Of a DNA stretch of 28,404 nt, positions 111 through 28,005 are shown piece by piece. The notes below the pieces were generated by a model, which had not been told where the DNA came from, did not search any database, and was given only the letters and a program-made list of their open reading frames with translations. The position numbers were made by a program, and so were the translations under genes. Within the stretch, counting starts at the first letter, position 1; each line of letters opens with the position of its first letter. Origin of the DNA: Spirogloea muscicola (Eukaryota; Streptophyta; Zygnematophyceae; Spirogloeales; Spirogloeaceae); assembly GCA_009602725.1 (NCBI GenBank), contig WELB01000163.1, positions 66,542-94,945 on the forward strand. The letters run 5' to 3'.

Positions 111-410
111 CTGCTTCTTGACCTTGTCCACCCATTCTTGGGCAGGGCTTTCACGGCCAGCGTTCTTTCTTCTTCGGGCTGGTTTTTCCAGCCCCTATTC
201 TCAATTAGTGAGCACTTGTTTCACAGCCAGCGCCCCTTCTGAACCCAGTTTCTCCGGCCTGCGGCTGCTAAGCAGGAAGAAGGAAAAAAAGAAAAGGAAA
301 AAAAGTAAGTGCTCGCCCATATAGAGAAAGCGCGGCCAGATTGACTGGTGGCTGGGAAAGGCCAACCCAAAAAAATGGACAAGGTCTGAGGGAGCTTGAG
401 TGTATATAGA
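110..410. repeat. Foldback-family repeat, inverted pair of arms
   Basis: The left part (about 110-220) is in minus orientation and the right part (about 290-400) in plus orientation, and both carry the family's diagnostic elements. The left part holds a hairpin at 176-194: GGGCTGG, loop of five T, CCAGCCC. The right part has the GCTCGCCCAT box followed by ggctgg and ccaaccc blocks and a run of A. The same elements recur at 960-1040, 1380-2160, 20665-20877, 22690-22870 and 27640-28005. Reading frames here are incidental. Confidence 0.55.
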
Positions 411-499: not shown

Positions 500-700
500 A
501 TGCTACATAATAATATAGAAGAGAACCCGACAAAGCCAGCCCAAAAGGGGAATATGGTGTGTTAAGTGATGGAGGGCCTGTGTGGCCAAGTACAAAGGTA
601 AGCACATTGACGAATGGACATCACCAGCTGCTAAGCTGACCCGCTCAGTAACCACGAGCCAGCACATAGAAGGAAGAAAGCGCGGCCAGGTTGACTGGTG
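500..700 (-). repeat. Retrotransposon 3' end, subfamily B (minus strand)
   Basis: Read on the minus strand this gives the 3' tail of the window's non-LTR element: a GCTGGCTCG...CGGGTCAGC hairpin (635-663), then the tail containing ATGTGCTTACCTTTGTAC and GGCCCTCCATCACTTA. The same tail follows the hairpin at 4781-4809 on the plus strand and 19951-19979 on the minus strand. No coding part is kept. Confidence 0.65.
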
Positions 701-719
701 GCCCAAAGTGATGGACAAG

Positions 720-960
720 GTCTGAAGGAGCCGGAGTGCGAAGGACTTGGACTAAGACATCAGCCAGGGAACGCTCAGTAACCTCTAGTCAGGAGATGCA
801 AGTCTGAGTAGCTAGCCGGCGGAAAGACGTCGCCCTAACGGAAGCCGGAGGCCGCCGCCAAAGCTCGGCCTGCGCGCAAGTGAACCGCAAAGGCAAGGGA
901 CCGCTGCATCGAGATCGCCAAACGCATTCGGAAGACTTGAGCGAGGGACCCGGCGACGTT
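720..960 (+). repeat. Dispersed repeat shared with 19445-19660
   Basis: Diverged copy of the segment at 19445-19660 in the same orientation. Shared landmarks in order are a GCTCAGTAACCTC box, a GGAGTA/GAGTAGCTAG box, a GGCGGAAA box, a GGAGGC box followed by GCAAAGGC, then a CGCATTC...GAGCGA block. No reading frame is conserved between the copies, so this is probably a non-coding mobile or retroposed sequence. Confidence 0.5.
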
Positions 961-1060
961 GAGGAGAGGCAGGAGATGAAAGTGCTCGCCCATTGAGGAT
1001 AGGGGCTGGAAAAGCCAGCCGCAGGAAGGACGACGGGTGGGGGAAAGGAGGGCTGGAGGT
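960..1060 (+). repeat. Foldback-family arm with hairpin
   Basis: Contains the GCTCGCCCATTGAGGATAGG box followed at 1003-1020 by GGGCTGG, a five-base loop and CCAGCC. This block is almost the same as 27917-27955 and close to 22709-22750. Confidence 0.6.
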
Positions 1061-1589: not shown

Positions 1590-1715
1590 GCGGTTCCATG
1601 GCCCACGCCTTGCACCTGCGGGATGGCCGTGCTCTCGCTGCAGTCTCTGGCTATCGTCAGGAGAATTTCGTGTATTTGAAATAAACGAAGGCCAAATGGC
1701 CAAGTGCATAGGGCT
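1590..1715. repeat. Retrotransposon fragments
   Basis: The reverse complement of about 1655-1712 contains CTTGGCCATTTGGCCTT, then a TTTATTTC and AATACACGA tail. This is the terminal block of the element seen at 3360-3412, 21420-21475 and 22490-22540. On the plus strand at about 1605-1640 the reading ALHLRDGRALA resembles ALHQKAGRALVGG in the element's ORF. The two pieces are in opposite orientation, so this is a small mosaic of decayed copies. Confidence 0.45.
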
Positions 1716-1739: not shown

Positions 1740-2160
1740 CTGCACTGCATTCTACCTAAACAATGTATTGGCTAGAATTGGCCTCCCTTTGAGTTCATGC
1801 GCTCCACGGACCTTCTCTCTCCAACCCCAAGTCTGAGATAGCGCTTTTTGGCCCTTTCGTTGTTTGGCCCCTTCGAATCTTGTCAGAGTATTTCGGGCTG
1901 GCTTATCGCAGCCATGGGAGAGGCACTTCTCTCGTCACAGCCGTTGCCGCCATTGGGAGAAAGCATGGGGAGAGCCACTTCTCTACAAAGGCCGCTCAAC
2001 AGGGTATTTTGAGCACCCAGTCGGCCACTTGAGTCGCTCTGTGCTTTGGCCCGTTTTGGCCCGCTTGAAGTTTGCTCTCTTTTCTCTGGCTGGCCTCTCC
2101 CAGCCACCACCCTCTCCTGGAAGCGTCGTTCCTCTTCTTCTCACAGCCCTCGCCCTTTTG
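1740..2160 (-). repeat. Composite of foldback-family arms
   Basis: Starts with a CTAAACAATGTATTGGCT block that is also present at 28270-28300 and, inverted, at 455-475. At 1838 it continues into AGCGCTTTTTGGCCC and CCCCTTCGAATCTTG, then CGGGCTGG...CAGCC, and at 2040-2160 a second arm of the same design (TTTGGCCCG, CTGGCTGG, CCCAGCC, CTCTCCTGGAAGCGT). A 238-codon plus-strand reading frame (1864-2580) crosses these blocks. I take it to be chance, because repeat copies elsewhere do not keep the frame. Confidence 0.5.
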
Positions 2161-3059: not shown

Positions 3060-3413
3060 CGTGCCTTGCCTTCAAAACATTGCCAATCTAGGCTACACTC
3101 GACGTGCAGATGTGTTTCCGGCTGAGTTGGGCTTGCCAGCTGCATATCTGTCGCTCTTGCGACGTCGATTTCGGCCTGTTTGCAGCGTGCTCAGGATAGT
3201 GCCTTGCACCAGAAAGCTGGGCGAGCTCTAGTAGGTGGCAGAAGGGCTCCGTTCCTGGTATCTAGTATTCATGCATCGAGTAGTGACCTTTATGTTTTGA
3301 CCCGTGGTTATTGAGCGGGTCAATCTGCTGTAGGTTATGTAGATTTTTAGATGTGCTTGCCTTTGTACCTGGCCATTTGGCCTACATTTCTTTCTAATAC
3401 ACGATCTCTCTTC
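3060..3413 (+). repeat. Retrotransposon copy A, 3' end
   Basis: The last 340 bases are nearly identical to 22205-22543 (copy C), with about six differences seen by eye. The ORF end (CLQNIANLGYTRRADVF...) is followed by the TTGACCCG...CGGGTCAA hairpin (3297-3323), the tail, and the same terminal ACACGATCT. One missing base near 3168 (GTCGATTTC against GTCGAGTTTC) shifts the frame, so the copy is dead. There is no poly(A) at the 3' end. Confidence 0.8.
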
Positions 3414-3604: not shown

Positions 3605-3720
3605 CGACCCTCATACGTGCTAAGCAACGGCTATGGAGCGGGTCAGCATAACAGAGGCGGCTTGCCTTCGTGCTCGGCCGCTTTGGCCGCTGTCACTCAT
3701 TACTCGCTGCCTTATATCCC
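3605..3720 (+). repeat. Decayed retrotransposon 3' tail
   Basis: GAGCGGGTCAGC is followed by GGCTTGCCTTCGTGCTCGGCC and a CTGTCACTCATTAC block, matching the tail after the hairpin at 4781-4809 (GAGCGGGTCAGC, GTGCTTGCCTTTGTGATTGG, CCATCACTCTGTAC). The left hairpin arm is degraded. Confidence 0.45.
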
Positions 3721-4690: not shown

Positions 4691-4900
4691 GTGTGATTGT
4701 AGAGCCAGCGGTGGCCTCCAATGCCAGATTGGCTCTCATTTGCCGTCCGGAGTCGGGCATTACTTAGCCATTCTCCACGTGCTGACTCGTGGTTATTGAG
4801 CGGGTCAGCTTAGCTGCAGGTAATGTGCATCATCACCTGTCGATGTGCTTGCCTTTGTGATTGGCCACTCAGGCCCTCCATCACTCTGTACATGCCGTAT
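4690..4900 (+). repeat. Retrotransposon 3' end, subfamily B
   Basis: The coding end reads ILHVLTRGY then stop, as LYVLTRGY-stop does in copy C. The stop lies in the loop of the hairpin GCTGACTCG...CGGGTCAGC (4781-4809). The tail then follows with ATGTGCTTGCCTTTGTGA and GGCCCTCCATCACT. Confidence 0.65.
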
Positions 4901-18954: not shown

Positions 18955-19340
18955 CCCCTGGCTTCCGAGGCTTTTCTCCAGCTTCCCAAGTTAGCCTCTC
19001 GGATGTTTATGAGCTCACTCGTAAGTACTAAAAGCCCTTCAGCCGGCTTGAGCACAGTCCCCTTGTTCACCCCTAGCATAAGGCTTTGCTTTGTATAGCC
19101 CCATCTTTTGCACTAGCTTTTTGAACGCTGCATTTGCTTCGGCTTGGTCTGGCCTCCCTGTCATTTATGCACAGTGCTCCATCTTTCTAAGAGCTCGCAG
19201 GCCCTGGCCCTTCACTGGCTCGCCCTAAGCCAGGCCACCATTAATTGCGCGATGCTCCGGGCTCCCAAGTTAGCCTGTGGCTCCAGGCTCCTGTGTTAAC
19301 CTGTGCTCGTGATTACTTGTATCCGCTTCAGCTGTGCCCC
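18955..19340 (+). repeat. Dispersed repeat (second copy)
   Basis: Shares ordered blocks with 2200-2540: AAGGCTTTGCTTTGTATAG, GGCCCTGGCCCTTCA, CCTAAGCCAGGCC, AAGTTAGCCTGT. It shares GAGCTCACTCGTAAGTACTA with 27500-27520. No conserved frame. Confidence 0.45.
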
Positions 19341-19444: not shown

Positions 19445-19660
19445 GGCGCAGAAACTTATCAGAAACTAATGTCTGACCTCTGCAAAAAGACGCTCAGTAA
19501 CCTCCAGACAAACATTGCAGATTGGAGTAACTAGAAGGCGGAAAAGCTTTGCACTATTGAGACCTGGAGGCAGCAACCAAGGTGCCGCAAAGGCCAAGCT
19601 ACGCTGCAAAGGTATTGGCAAGGCGCATTCTGCACACCTGAGCGACCTAAACCAAAACCC
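19445..19660 (+). repeat. Dispersed repeat shared with 720-960
   Basis: Collinear with 720-960: CGCTCAGTAACCTCC, GGAGTAACTAGAAGGCGGAAA, CTGGAGGCAGC, GCAAAGGC, GGCGCATTC, GAGCGA. It is followed at about 19765 by an AACAGTTTATTGGCT block related to those at 1755 and 28274. Confidence 0.5.
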
Positions 19661-19867: not shown

Positions 19868-20610
19868 TGATTTGAGTAATGGAGGGCCTGAGTGACACGT
19901 ACAAGGGCAAGCACACTGACATGTGTACTGAGCGGGTCGCCTTCTGCTAAGCTGACCCGCTCAGTAGTCACGAGTCAGCAGTACAGGTCGATGATTGATG
20001 CCAAAACAGCGGACGGCAGTTGACATGCCCGTCTATCACCAGCTTAACCAGCTTTCTGGTGCAAAGCATGAGCCTCAGCTCGCTGCAAACAGGCTGGCAT
20101 ACGATGCGCAATAACGTCAAATCTGCTGGAAGCACATCCTCCACATCGTGCATATCAGTGACTTGCAGTGTTCTCAAGTAGGGTACAAATCTCGGACCCA
20201 TGCAGCCTAAGATGTCAATTGCGGCCAGTAATAAGTGATGGATGCGGGGGTGGTCAGAAAGTGCTGCAGCTTTCTCTGCTCTGCACTCCCCACTGTATGG
20301 CCAGCAATGTGGGTCAATGCTGAATACTTTTACGCCTCCGTCACAACCACATCTCCGTCACAACCAAGGCTCGTGGACCCCCCAGAAGGTTGTACACCCA
20401 CGATGTCTAGGGTGCGACGGTGTTGGCGTCCCTGGACTCTTCGTGGAGATGAAGATGATGTTGTTTACCTCCACTACAGCGCGGTAGCCGGCGCCACTCA
20501 TCAAGTCCGCCAGAGAGAATCCTGGAGGAAACTGTGAACGGCCACCACTTCAGGTCCTGTGGGCATTGCAACATGTGCGTAGGGAGGTGACCGCCATCCA
20601 CGCGATAGCT
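19868..20610 (-). mobile_element. Retrotransposon copy D, decayed (minus strand)
   Basis: Minus-strand reading follows the ORF of copy C from the zinc-knuckle end (LPTHMLQCPQDLKWW against LATHMLRCPTGPEVV) through the HRRTLDIVG-equivalent to GPRFVPYLRTLQ and LCTRKLVKLV, then the subfamily-B hairpin (19951-19979) and tail. It has stops, frame changes and a local duplication of a GTGGTTGTGACGGAG unit at about 20335-20375, where the endonuclease D-V-V-V block should be. At 19926-19966 two perfect 13-base arms (TACTGAGCGGGTC and its complement) form an extra inverted repeat next to the hairpin. Confidence 0.7.
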
Positions 20611-20877: not shown

Positions 20878-20934
20878 CACACAGGAAATCAAGTAGCTAC
20901 GAATCACTTAGTATTCCCTATTAAAGCAGCCGCA

Positions 20935-21478
20935 GGTCGGATAAACTGGTCACCTGATAGCGGGTCTTCTGGCCTGGTTGTTGTTACGGAGACTTATAAA
21001 GGTCCAGCGTTGACGCATCACTGACACGCAGTAGCAAGTGTAGAACAAAGAGAGCTGCAGCACTACTTCGATTACCCCCAATGCGATCAGCTCCTGCCAG
21101 CTGCAGTCGACATTGTTGGCTGTTTAGGTCCTCTTTCCACACTCACCTTCAGAATACTGCCAATCTAGGATATGCACGACGTGCAGATGTGTTTCAGGCT
21201 GAGATGTGCTTGCCAGCTGCATATCTCTCGTTCTTGCGACGACGAATTTCGGCCTGTTCGCAGCTTGCCCAGGCTCATGCCCAGAAGGCTGGGCGTTATC
21301 TAGTTGGTGGCTGAGGGCTCTGTATCTGCCATCTCGTAATTAGGCATCGATTAGCGACCTTAGTGTATTGACCCGTGGTTACTGAGCGGGTCAATCTGCT
21401 GTAGGTGCTATACGTCTTTAGATGTGCTTGTGTTTGTACTTGGCCATTTGGCCTTTGTTTGTTTCCAATACACTAAAA
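20935..21478 (+). mobile_element. Retrotransposon copy B, 5'-truncated and broken
   Basis: Starts at the endonuclease block (LVVVTETYKGPALTH against VDVVVTEAYKGPAST) and runs through YPQCDQLLPAAVDI, the ORF end, the TTGACCCG...CGGGTCAA hairpin (21368-21394) and the tail to CAATACACTAAAA. Stops and frame changes make it inactive. Its 3' end abuts copy C directly. Confidence 0.75.
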
Positions 21479-21544
21479 TTGGCTGGCCCGGGCCAGAGGG
21501 TGCAGAGGTTGACGTAGGACGGGTCGACAAGGCCCCCATTTCAT

Positions 21545-22447
21545 ATGGCAGTGGAAGACGAACGCCGCAGAAGGTTGAGGAGGCTGCCAGAGATTCAGAA
21601 CAATCCGAGGAGCTTGGCAAGACTCACTTCTCTGGCCACACCTGGTGCCACTGACTGGATCACCTCTCCCCCCGTCGCCAACGCCTTCAGCATCAGCTCC
21701 GAGGCCTTTCGGACATCGCTTCAACTCTTCCTCGGCCTCCCACCTAATTGCCTGATTGGGGTGCGCCAGTGCGAGTGCGGCTTCCGTGCAGAGGGTGCTG
21801 TGCTCGCCACTCACATGCTGAGATGCCCCACTGGACCAGAAGTGGTGGGCATTCACAACCTCCTTCGCGATGCCCTGGCGGGCTTGATGCGCGACGCCGG
21901 CTACCGTGCGGTCGTGGAAGTCAACAATATCATGCCTATCACCACGGACGCCCAGGGACGTCATCATCGCCGCACACTTGACATTGTGGGCGTGCAACCT
22001 GGTGGAGGACCACGGGCCCTGGTCGACGTTGTTGTTACGGAGGCATATAAAGGCCCAGCATCAACACACATTGCTGGGCACGCAGTGGGCGGAGCAGAGC
22101 AAAGAAAACTGCGGCATTACTCCGATTACCCCCAATGCGATCAACTCCTGCCAGCTGCAATCGACATCTTTGGCTGTCTGGGTCCTCGCTTCCACACTCT
22201 GCTTCAAAACATTGCCAATCTAGGCTACACTCGACGCGCAGATGTGTTTCCGGCTGAGATGGGCTTGCCAGCTGCATATCTGTCGCTCTTGCGACGTCGA
22301 GTTTCGGCCTGTTTGCAGCGTGCTCAGGCTAGTGCCTTGCACCAGAAAGCTGGGCGAGCTCTAGTAGGTGGCAGAAGGGCTCCGTTCCTGGCATCTAGTA
22401 TTCATGCATCGAGTAGTGACCTTTATGTATTGACCCGTGGTTATTGA
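21545..22447 (+). CDS. C-terminal part of non-LTR retrotransposon protein, putative REL endonuclease
   Basis: Open for 300 residues, of which the first methionine is probably internal to a truncated protein. Residues 1-75 resemble the region following the reverse-transcriptase domain. A CxC...HxxxC knuckle lies at C76, C78, H90 and C94. A likely restriction-like (PD-(D/E)XK-type) nuclease core follows: RRTLDIVG with D146, then VDVVVTEAYK with D161, E166 and K169. R2, CRE and NeSL elements carry the same order of knuckle then nuclease at the C-terminus and cut at preferred target sites. That class assignment rests on motif order, not alignment. The C-terminal 120 residues (YPQCDQLLPAAIDI, LLQNIANLGYTRRADVF) are conserved among the window's copies. 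Without the reverse-transcriptase part the copy cannot move on its own. Confidence 0.6.
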   Translation: MAVEDERRRRLRRLPEIQNNPRSLARLTSLATPGATDWITSPPVANAFSISSEAFRTSLQLFLGLPPNCLIGVRQCECGFRAEGAVLATHMLRCPTGPEVVGIHNLLRDALAGLMRDAGYRAVVEVNNIMPITTDAQGRHHRRTLDIVGVQPGGGPRALVDVVVTEAYKGPASTHIAGHAVGGAEQRKLRHYSDYPQCDQLLPAAIDIFGCLGPRFHTLLQNIANLGYTRRADVFPAEMGLPAAYLSLLRRRVSACLQRAQASALHQKAGRALVGGRRAPFLASSIHASSSDLYVLTRGY

Positions 22448-22456
22448 GCGGGTCAA
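22430..22456 (+). other. Retrotransposon 3' hairpin over the stop codon
   Basis: Perfect 8-bp stem TTGACCCG/CGGGTCAA with an 11-base loop that contains the ORF's TGA. Equivalent hairpins are at 3297-3323, 21368-21394 and 4781-4809 (plus), and 635-663 and 19951-19979 (minus). In non-LTR elements such a 3' structure is typically what the reverse transcriptase recognises; that role is inferred here. Confidence 0.7.
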
Positions 22457-22689
22457 TCTGCTGTAGGTTATGTAGATTTTTAGATGTGCTTGCCTTTGTA
22501 CCTGGCCATTTGGCCTACATTTCTTTCTAATACACGATCTTTTCCATTTCTTCGCACTGGTTTCGTCTGGACATTGTACCGCGCCTTCTCTATTCTCTCT
22601 CTTGTTCATGGTGAGTGGGGACGCCAACCACGGAACTCGCTAAATTCGCCGGTTCATCCGGCACTCGTGTATCGCGACAGTCCCACATC

Positions 22690-22870
22690 GTGCTGCCTCA
22701 AAAGAAGAAAGTTCTCGCCCATCGAGAATGGGGGCTGGAAAAGCCAGCCCAAAAAAAATCAACAAAGGACGAGGAGGGGGCCAGGGGAAGCGCTAAGAAA
22801 AACAAGCACACAAAGAAACAAAGCAGCTAAGGATCACTCAGTAACCCCTGCTAAGCAGCCTCAGGTCAAA
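22690..22870 (+). repeat. Foldback-family right arm
   Basis: GTTCTCGCCCATCGAGAATG, then the hairpin GGGCTGG-aaaag-CCAGCCC (22732-22750), a run of A, GGGGGCCAGGGGAAGCGCTA, and an extension GATCACTCAGTAACCCC...CAGCCTCAGGTC that also follows the element at 20877 (to about 20938). It lies just upstream of the NOL11 start region. Confidence 0.6.
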
Positions 22871-27639: not shown

Positions 27640-28005
27640 GCGCCTTTTGGCCCTTCGACCCTTTTTCAATCTTTCTGGGCTGGCCATTCACAGCCCCCGC
27701 CCACCTTTGGATGAGCTCATTCCATGCCTCCCGTGCATTCCATGCGTACAGCTTGCCCTTCTCCTTGGCTCGGCAGTGAGGGCCAAACCGTCGGGCGCCC
27801 TGCGGCCGGCCCGCCCGCCTGTGGGCGGGCCGGCCTGTGGCTGGGGGCTGGCTCTGTTGCGGCGGCCTGGTTTAGGTGCGGGACGGGGGCGGCGCGACGG
27901 GCCTAGCAGAAGAAAGTGCTCGCCCATTGAGGATAGGGGCTGGAAAAGCCAGCCCAAAAAAGAATGAAACAGAGTACGAGAAGGGGGCCAGGGGCAGCGC
28001 TAAGA
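27640..28005. mobile_element. Foldback (MITE-like) element, larger copy
   Basis: The left arm (GCGCCTTTTGGCCCTTCGA, CTGGGCTGGCCATTCACAGCC) and the right arm, reverse-complemented (TTAGCGCTGCCCCTGGCCC, TTGGGCTGGCTTTTCCAGCC), match each other and the arms at 20665-20877. The right arm carries the perfect hairpin GGGCTGG-aaaag-CCAGCCC at 27937-27955. The centre is a GC-rich insert with a strong palindrome at 27804-27835. No ORF of substance. Confidence 0.55.
27804..27835. repeat. Perfect 13-bp inverted repeat
   Basis: GGCCGGCCCGCCC, six-base spacer GCCTGT, then GGGCGGGCCGGCC. All bases are G or C in the arms. It sits at the centre of the foldback element at 27640-28005. Confidence 0.9.

Follow-up and report, generated by a model that had tools for sequence, protein, structure and literature searches.

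A predicted hairpin over the stop codon in two families of copies of a putative non-LTR retrotransposon from Spirogloea muscicola

A hairpin, designated H1, with a 10-pair stem around a 9-base loop over the stop codon is kept in six of the seven copies of a repeated element that span this site in the window (the whole stretch of DNA analysed, 28,404 nt). The copies belong to two families, A and B, and the reading we tentatively prefer is that H1, overlapping the stop codon, may belong to the 3' template mark of a non-LTR retrotransposon. The case for H1 is built on a predicted structure, its place over the stop, its occurrence in two families, two changes that affect both sides of a pair, and a coding arm that differs at synonymous sites only. 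The support that these sequences lend to H1 as an RNA structure under selection is modest and comes from one A/B contrast.

The window has the look of nuclear DNA from a eukaryote, with many decayed repeats. The element, its protein and its larger copies are represented by the following features:

21545..22447, + strand: ORF of 300 aa in copy A22, C-terminal part of the element's protein, ending VLTRGY and stop TGA
22484..22515, + strand: 3' UTR block, the second one conserved between the two families, ATGTGCTTGCCTTTGTAC..TGGCCATTTGGCC, with a GGCC/GGCC palindrome
20941..21473, + strand: copy A21, decayed and apparently 5'-truncated, about 530 bp
3070..3407, + strand: copy A3, 5'-truncated, 338 bp, 98% identical to A22 over their overlap
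about 20644-19870, - strand: related copy; other relatives are shorter pieces

The 300-aa ORF carries the motifs Cys-x-Cys...His-x3-Cys and DIV...VDVVVT (seen by eye), which we take to be similar to the end that bears a restriction-like endonuclease in certain non-LTR elements; such endonuclease-like motifs at the C-terminus of the protein are presumably also a likeness to the Dualen/RandI LINEs. No Pfam match and no PDB sequence match was obtained for the ORF (21545-22447), and its structure model, predicted from one sequence, reached a mean pLDDT of 34.1, too poor for a fold search. The copies keep only the C-terminal part of the protein, and no reverse transcriptase domain was seen in them. 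A study of the R2 endonuclease names, downstream of the RT, a CCHC motif together with a domain of the PD-(D/E)XK type (PMC3636483).

The 5'-truncated copies have a common 3' end (AATACAC in all four A-type copies compared) but differ in length, the shortest measuring about 40 bp (1673-1714) and others 338 bp and about 530 bp, as expected of target-primed insertion. The ORF of A22 starts about 70 bases behind A21, and A22 begins within 21473-21545 (72 bases), head to tail with its neighbour, an arrangement expected from template jumping or from insertion next to a copy already present. The second conserved block with its GGCC/GGCC palindrome is found in A21 at 21422-21453, and the palindrome was left out of the evidence because it hardly varies. 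Protein and DNA pattern searches of viral contigs and genome contigs, which find close matches only, revealed no relative. The one match in a viral contig was regarded as chance, as its surroundings were judged by eye to be unlike the element and the complementary left arm was absent.

H1 was defined on a gap-free alignment of the seven spanning copies, which are given below with one very short piece of the A type (z, fold z-score of the 46-nt stretch):

22429..22457, + strand: H1 of copy A22, left arm 22429-22438, right arm 22448-22457, z -2.97
22439-22447, + strand: loop of H1 in A22, GGTTATTGA, stop TGA at 22445-22447
21367..21395, + strand: H1 of copy A21, stop TGA at 21383-21385, z -3.96
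3296..3324, + strand: H1 of copy A3, outermost pair lost (T-T), z -2.33
4781..4809, + strand: H1 of a B copy, z -1.34
635..663, - strand: H1 of a B copy, left arm GCTGGCTCG with one G-U pair, z -0.90
19951..19979, - strand: H1 of a B copy, z -3.03
3619..3647, + strand: decayed B copy, right arm intact, 4 of 10 pairs broken, found by a profile of the six other copies
1673..1714, - strand: very short A-type piece without H1, starting downstream of the hairpin and sharing the end AATACAC, also detected by that profile

The A stem is ATTGACCCGT / GCGGGTCAAT, with nine Watson-Crick pairs and one U-G in the best A copies, and the B stem is GCTGACTCGT / GCGGGTCAGC, for which copy 635-663 instead has GCTGGCTCGT. 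The left arm of the B family reads GCTGACTCG in two of the three intact copies and GCTGGCTCG in the third (635-663). The loop is GGT TAY TGA (Gly-Tyr-stop) in five copies and GAC TAC TGA (Asp-Tyr-stop) in B copy 19951-19979, in the reading frame of the element in each case. Standard pairs occupy 65 of the 70 cells of the seven-copy alignment; four of the five non-standard cells lie in the decayed copy 3619-3647, and the fifth is the outermost pair of copy 3296-3324. The initial annotation had proposed a hairpin with both arms present in six copies on both strands and the ORF stop inside the loop. Both points were confirmed, with TGA in frame in the loop of six copies, and the decayed B copy at 3619-3647 is added as a seventh that spans the site.

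In predicted folds of 63-base stretches centred on the stop, the stem was formed in all six copies, while at 46 nt H1 was the centroid of copy 635-663 and not its minimum-energy fold. Within 160 nt of context, H1 belonged to the minimum-energy fold of four of the six copies and was absent in 635 and 19951: the left arm of copy 635-663 paired upstream instead, and in copy 19951-19979 a 13-bp inverted repeat outcompeted H1. Rfam gave no match at the gathering score anywhere in the window, and at a lax threshold on 21300-22560 a single sub-threshold match was returned, at 22322-22359 on the other strand and not over H1. No tRNA was found in the window by a tRNA search with the bacterial code. Perfect inverted repeats with arms of at least 8 and loops of 3-20 number 26 in the window, as against 5-15 in 12 shuffles, so that a single hairpin alone means little.

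The informative event is the A/B split. Six copies do not amount to six tests, because there is one A/B contrast and the copies of a family inherit the hairpin together. Three stem pairs differ between the majority sequences of the two families, from which the decayed copy was excluded, and the other seven are the same in both. Two of the three, columns 9/37 and 10/36, are altered on both sides, and the third, column 15/31, is C-G in one family and the wobble U-G in the other, with one side changed. An A:T pair replaced by C:G on both arms, with all remaining changes of the wobble type, had been described earlier; the wobble is found at 15/31, and the single double change has to be revised, as two pairs differ on both sides. 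The left-arm codons are GTA TTG ACC versus GTG CTG ACT, both encoding Val-Leu-Thr, and all three left-arm differences are thus synonymous.

When three left and two right changes were placed at random on the A stem, 0.25-3.2% of 200,000 trials per setting gave full pairing together with two double changes, the result depending on the transition share. The covariation score was matched by 3 of 500 shuffles and the share of paired cells likewise by 3 of 500, both being inflated by the kinship of the copies. In two other measures the alignment did not exceed the shuffles: at least as many pairs with double changes were seen in 328 of 500, and at least as many further pair types in all 500. Sliding the partners by 1-3 columns reduced pairing to 23-43%.

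Conservation was compared between A22 and A21 on one side and the three intact B copies on the other, with A3 excluded. A/B identity is 72-83% over the 29-base hairpin and 41-57% over the 60 columns upstream (only 17 of which were available for 635-663); downstream of H1 it is 59-75% over the next 60 columns and 54-60% over all of the remaining 3' part. Selection on an RNA structure, as the initial annotation suggested, is consistent with the two double-sided changes, the coding arm with synonymous differences only and a block better conserved than its surroundings. It is weakened by the single contrast (P 0.25-3.2%), by more distant relatives, C and D, that lack the stem, and by the footprint of a template switch in one copy.

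The C relatives (774-783 and 19493-19502, both on the - strand) and D (22837-22846, - strand) end in L(T/S)(R/G)GY and stop and keep GGTTACTGAG. The profile of the six copies also weakly reaches the two C ends (E 0.0043 and 0.16). The arms of H1 are absent from the C and D ends, and the z-scores of their 46-base stretches (0.89 and 0.28 for C, -0.78 for D) are not or hardly better than those of shuffles; a decayed D-like stretch near 20900 (- strand), judged by eye, has a z of -1.86. An alternative hairpin around the stop can form in the D copy at 22837, which may be chance. With the C-terminus and GGTTACTGAG present in C and D and the stem missing, conservation of the peptide and loop reaches further than that of the stem. 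A further relative, with SDVYELTRKY and then TAA at 18993-19031, is also without the H1 stem.

Another repeat tail in the window contains a different hairpin, GGGCTGG-CTTTT (or TTTTT)-CCAGCCC, which appeared in 4 of 10 stretches folded, once without the outer pair. Its sites are 22690-22770 (- strand, downstream of the D-type stop), 27895-27975 (- strand), 960-1040 (- strand) and 150-235 (+ strand), and variants occur at 300-400 (- strand) and 2050-2150 (+ strand).

The most serious mutational rival is template switching (quasi-palindrome correction), by which one arm would have been copied onto the other in one event, leaving the inverted repeat and the matched changes with little or no selection and RNA structure as a by-product. 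Stems, and compensatory changes of several neighbouring bases at once, were reported to arise by template switching (PMC8794818), a process that can yield double changes without selection. Such an event has probably occurred at this very site, where one feature stands out:

19926..19966, - strand: 13-bp perfect inverted repeat with a 15-nt loop, in which a portion of the loop and right arm of H1 is copied in reverse

In copy 19951-19979, TACTGAGCGGGTC is followed 15 bases on by its exact reverse complement, and the other two intact B copies are without this repeat; an inverted copying event is most likely the source of the repeat. The two double-sided pairs are adjacent, at the base of the stem, a placement expected from a single event. 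However, the third pair to differ, with C-G turned into U-G, was left uncorrected, the left arm was altered at synonymous sites only, and conservation is higher in the hairpin block than around it; we consider it unlikely that template switching accounts for H1. About equally unlikely is that the pairing is incidental: constraint on the protein (C-terminus LTRGY) would preserve the left arm and loop, and some sequence-specific signal the right arm. The recurrence of L(T/S)(R/G)GY with GGTTACTGAG in C and D, where the stem is missing, fits this explanation, as does GAGCGGGTCA, which is identical in all seven copies, even the decayed one. Against it stand the two matched changes and arms that are complementary over 10 pairs in A as well as in B, a result rarely reproduced by random placement. 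Part of the left-arm conservation may be peptide conservation.

The location of H1 over the stop would also suit a role in translation termination or mRNA 3'-end formation in place of reverse transcription, which we regard as improbable, there being no conserved extension past the stop. The frame beyond the stop runs for 11 codons in the three A copies and for 7 in two B copies, and in the third B copy it is open through all 39 codons displayed. As the extensions differ among the A and B copies, a conserved readthrough product is not indicated and stop-codon readthrough is disfavoured.

The preferred reading of H1, as part of the 3' template mark, draws the role of a mark for the reverse transcriptase from other LINEs (PMC4176376, PMC5135761). 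According to previous studies, the protein of stringent-type LINEs binds a stem-loop in the 3' tail of the RNA, with stem and loop read by different regions (PMC4176376, PMC5135761). The stem-loops described there for UnaL2, ZfL2-1/2 and SART1 are, like H1, short, near the RNA 3' end and conserved in the loop. Stringent-type LINEs typically conserve a stem-loop near the 3' end of their RNA, and this trait is present here within two families only. Unlike H1, which has the stop in its loop and a coding left arm, those stem-loops are described as belonging to the 3' UTR, and H1 is without the bulge 4-6 bp from the loop that marks the consensus given for stringent-type LINEs (PMC5135761).

A 3' hairpin with compensatory changes has been reported in monocot L1 elements (PMC3747384). 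The hairpin of these L1-clade LINEs and their SINEs resembles H1 in that it is a prediction from sequence, shows compensatory changes and has conserved bases in the loop, but it belongs to another clade, lies at another position and is backed by LINE and SINE families, compared with two families of one element here (PMC3747384). For human L1, stem-loop positions were predicted at the end of ORF2 (PMC5135761); the available passages do not describe them as spanning the stop and report no evidence of function. The Dualen/RandI LINEs of green algae (PMC3747384, PMC8226300) share with the present element the likely setting in a green alga. A literature search for a retrotransposon hairpin overlapping the stop found no papers. 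Among the literature matches listed (titles and abstract starts), no LINE hairpin over a stop codon was described, which is no proof of absence in print. Hairpins of this kind at the 3' end are already known; what is unusual is that the loop holds the stop.

H1 lies within about the last 110 bases of the element's presumed transcript, its loop holding the last two codons and the stop. Together with the second conserved block about 27-58 bases downstream, H1 would constitute the 3' template mark, which the element's own protein would bind before target-primed reverse transcription, as in stringent-type LINEs. A terminating ribosome would melt H1, because the stop lies in the loop, and we conjecture that H1 folds and binds new protein only between rounds of translation. 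It is quite doubtful, as a further step, that the mark is built around the element's own stop so that termination and RNA capture exclude each other, the released protein binding the refolded mark and thereby enforcing a preference for its own RNA.

The way in which LINE-type proteins choose their own RNA is understood only in part. If a template mark does lie over the stop codon, it would couple RNA capture to the end of translation by simple physical means. If template switching alone is at work, the hairpin would instead be a caution against inferring covariation from a handful of repeat copies.
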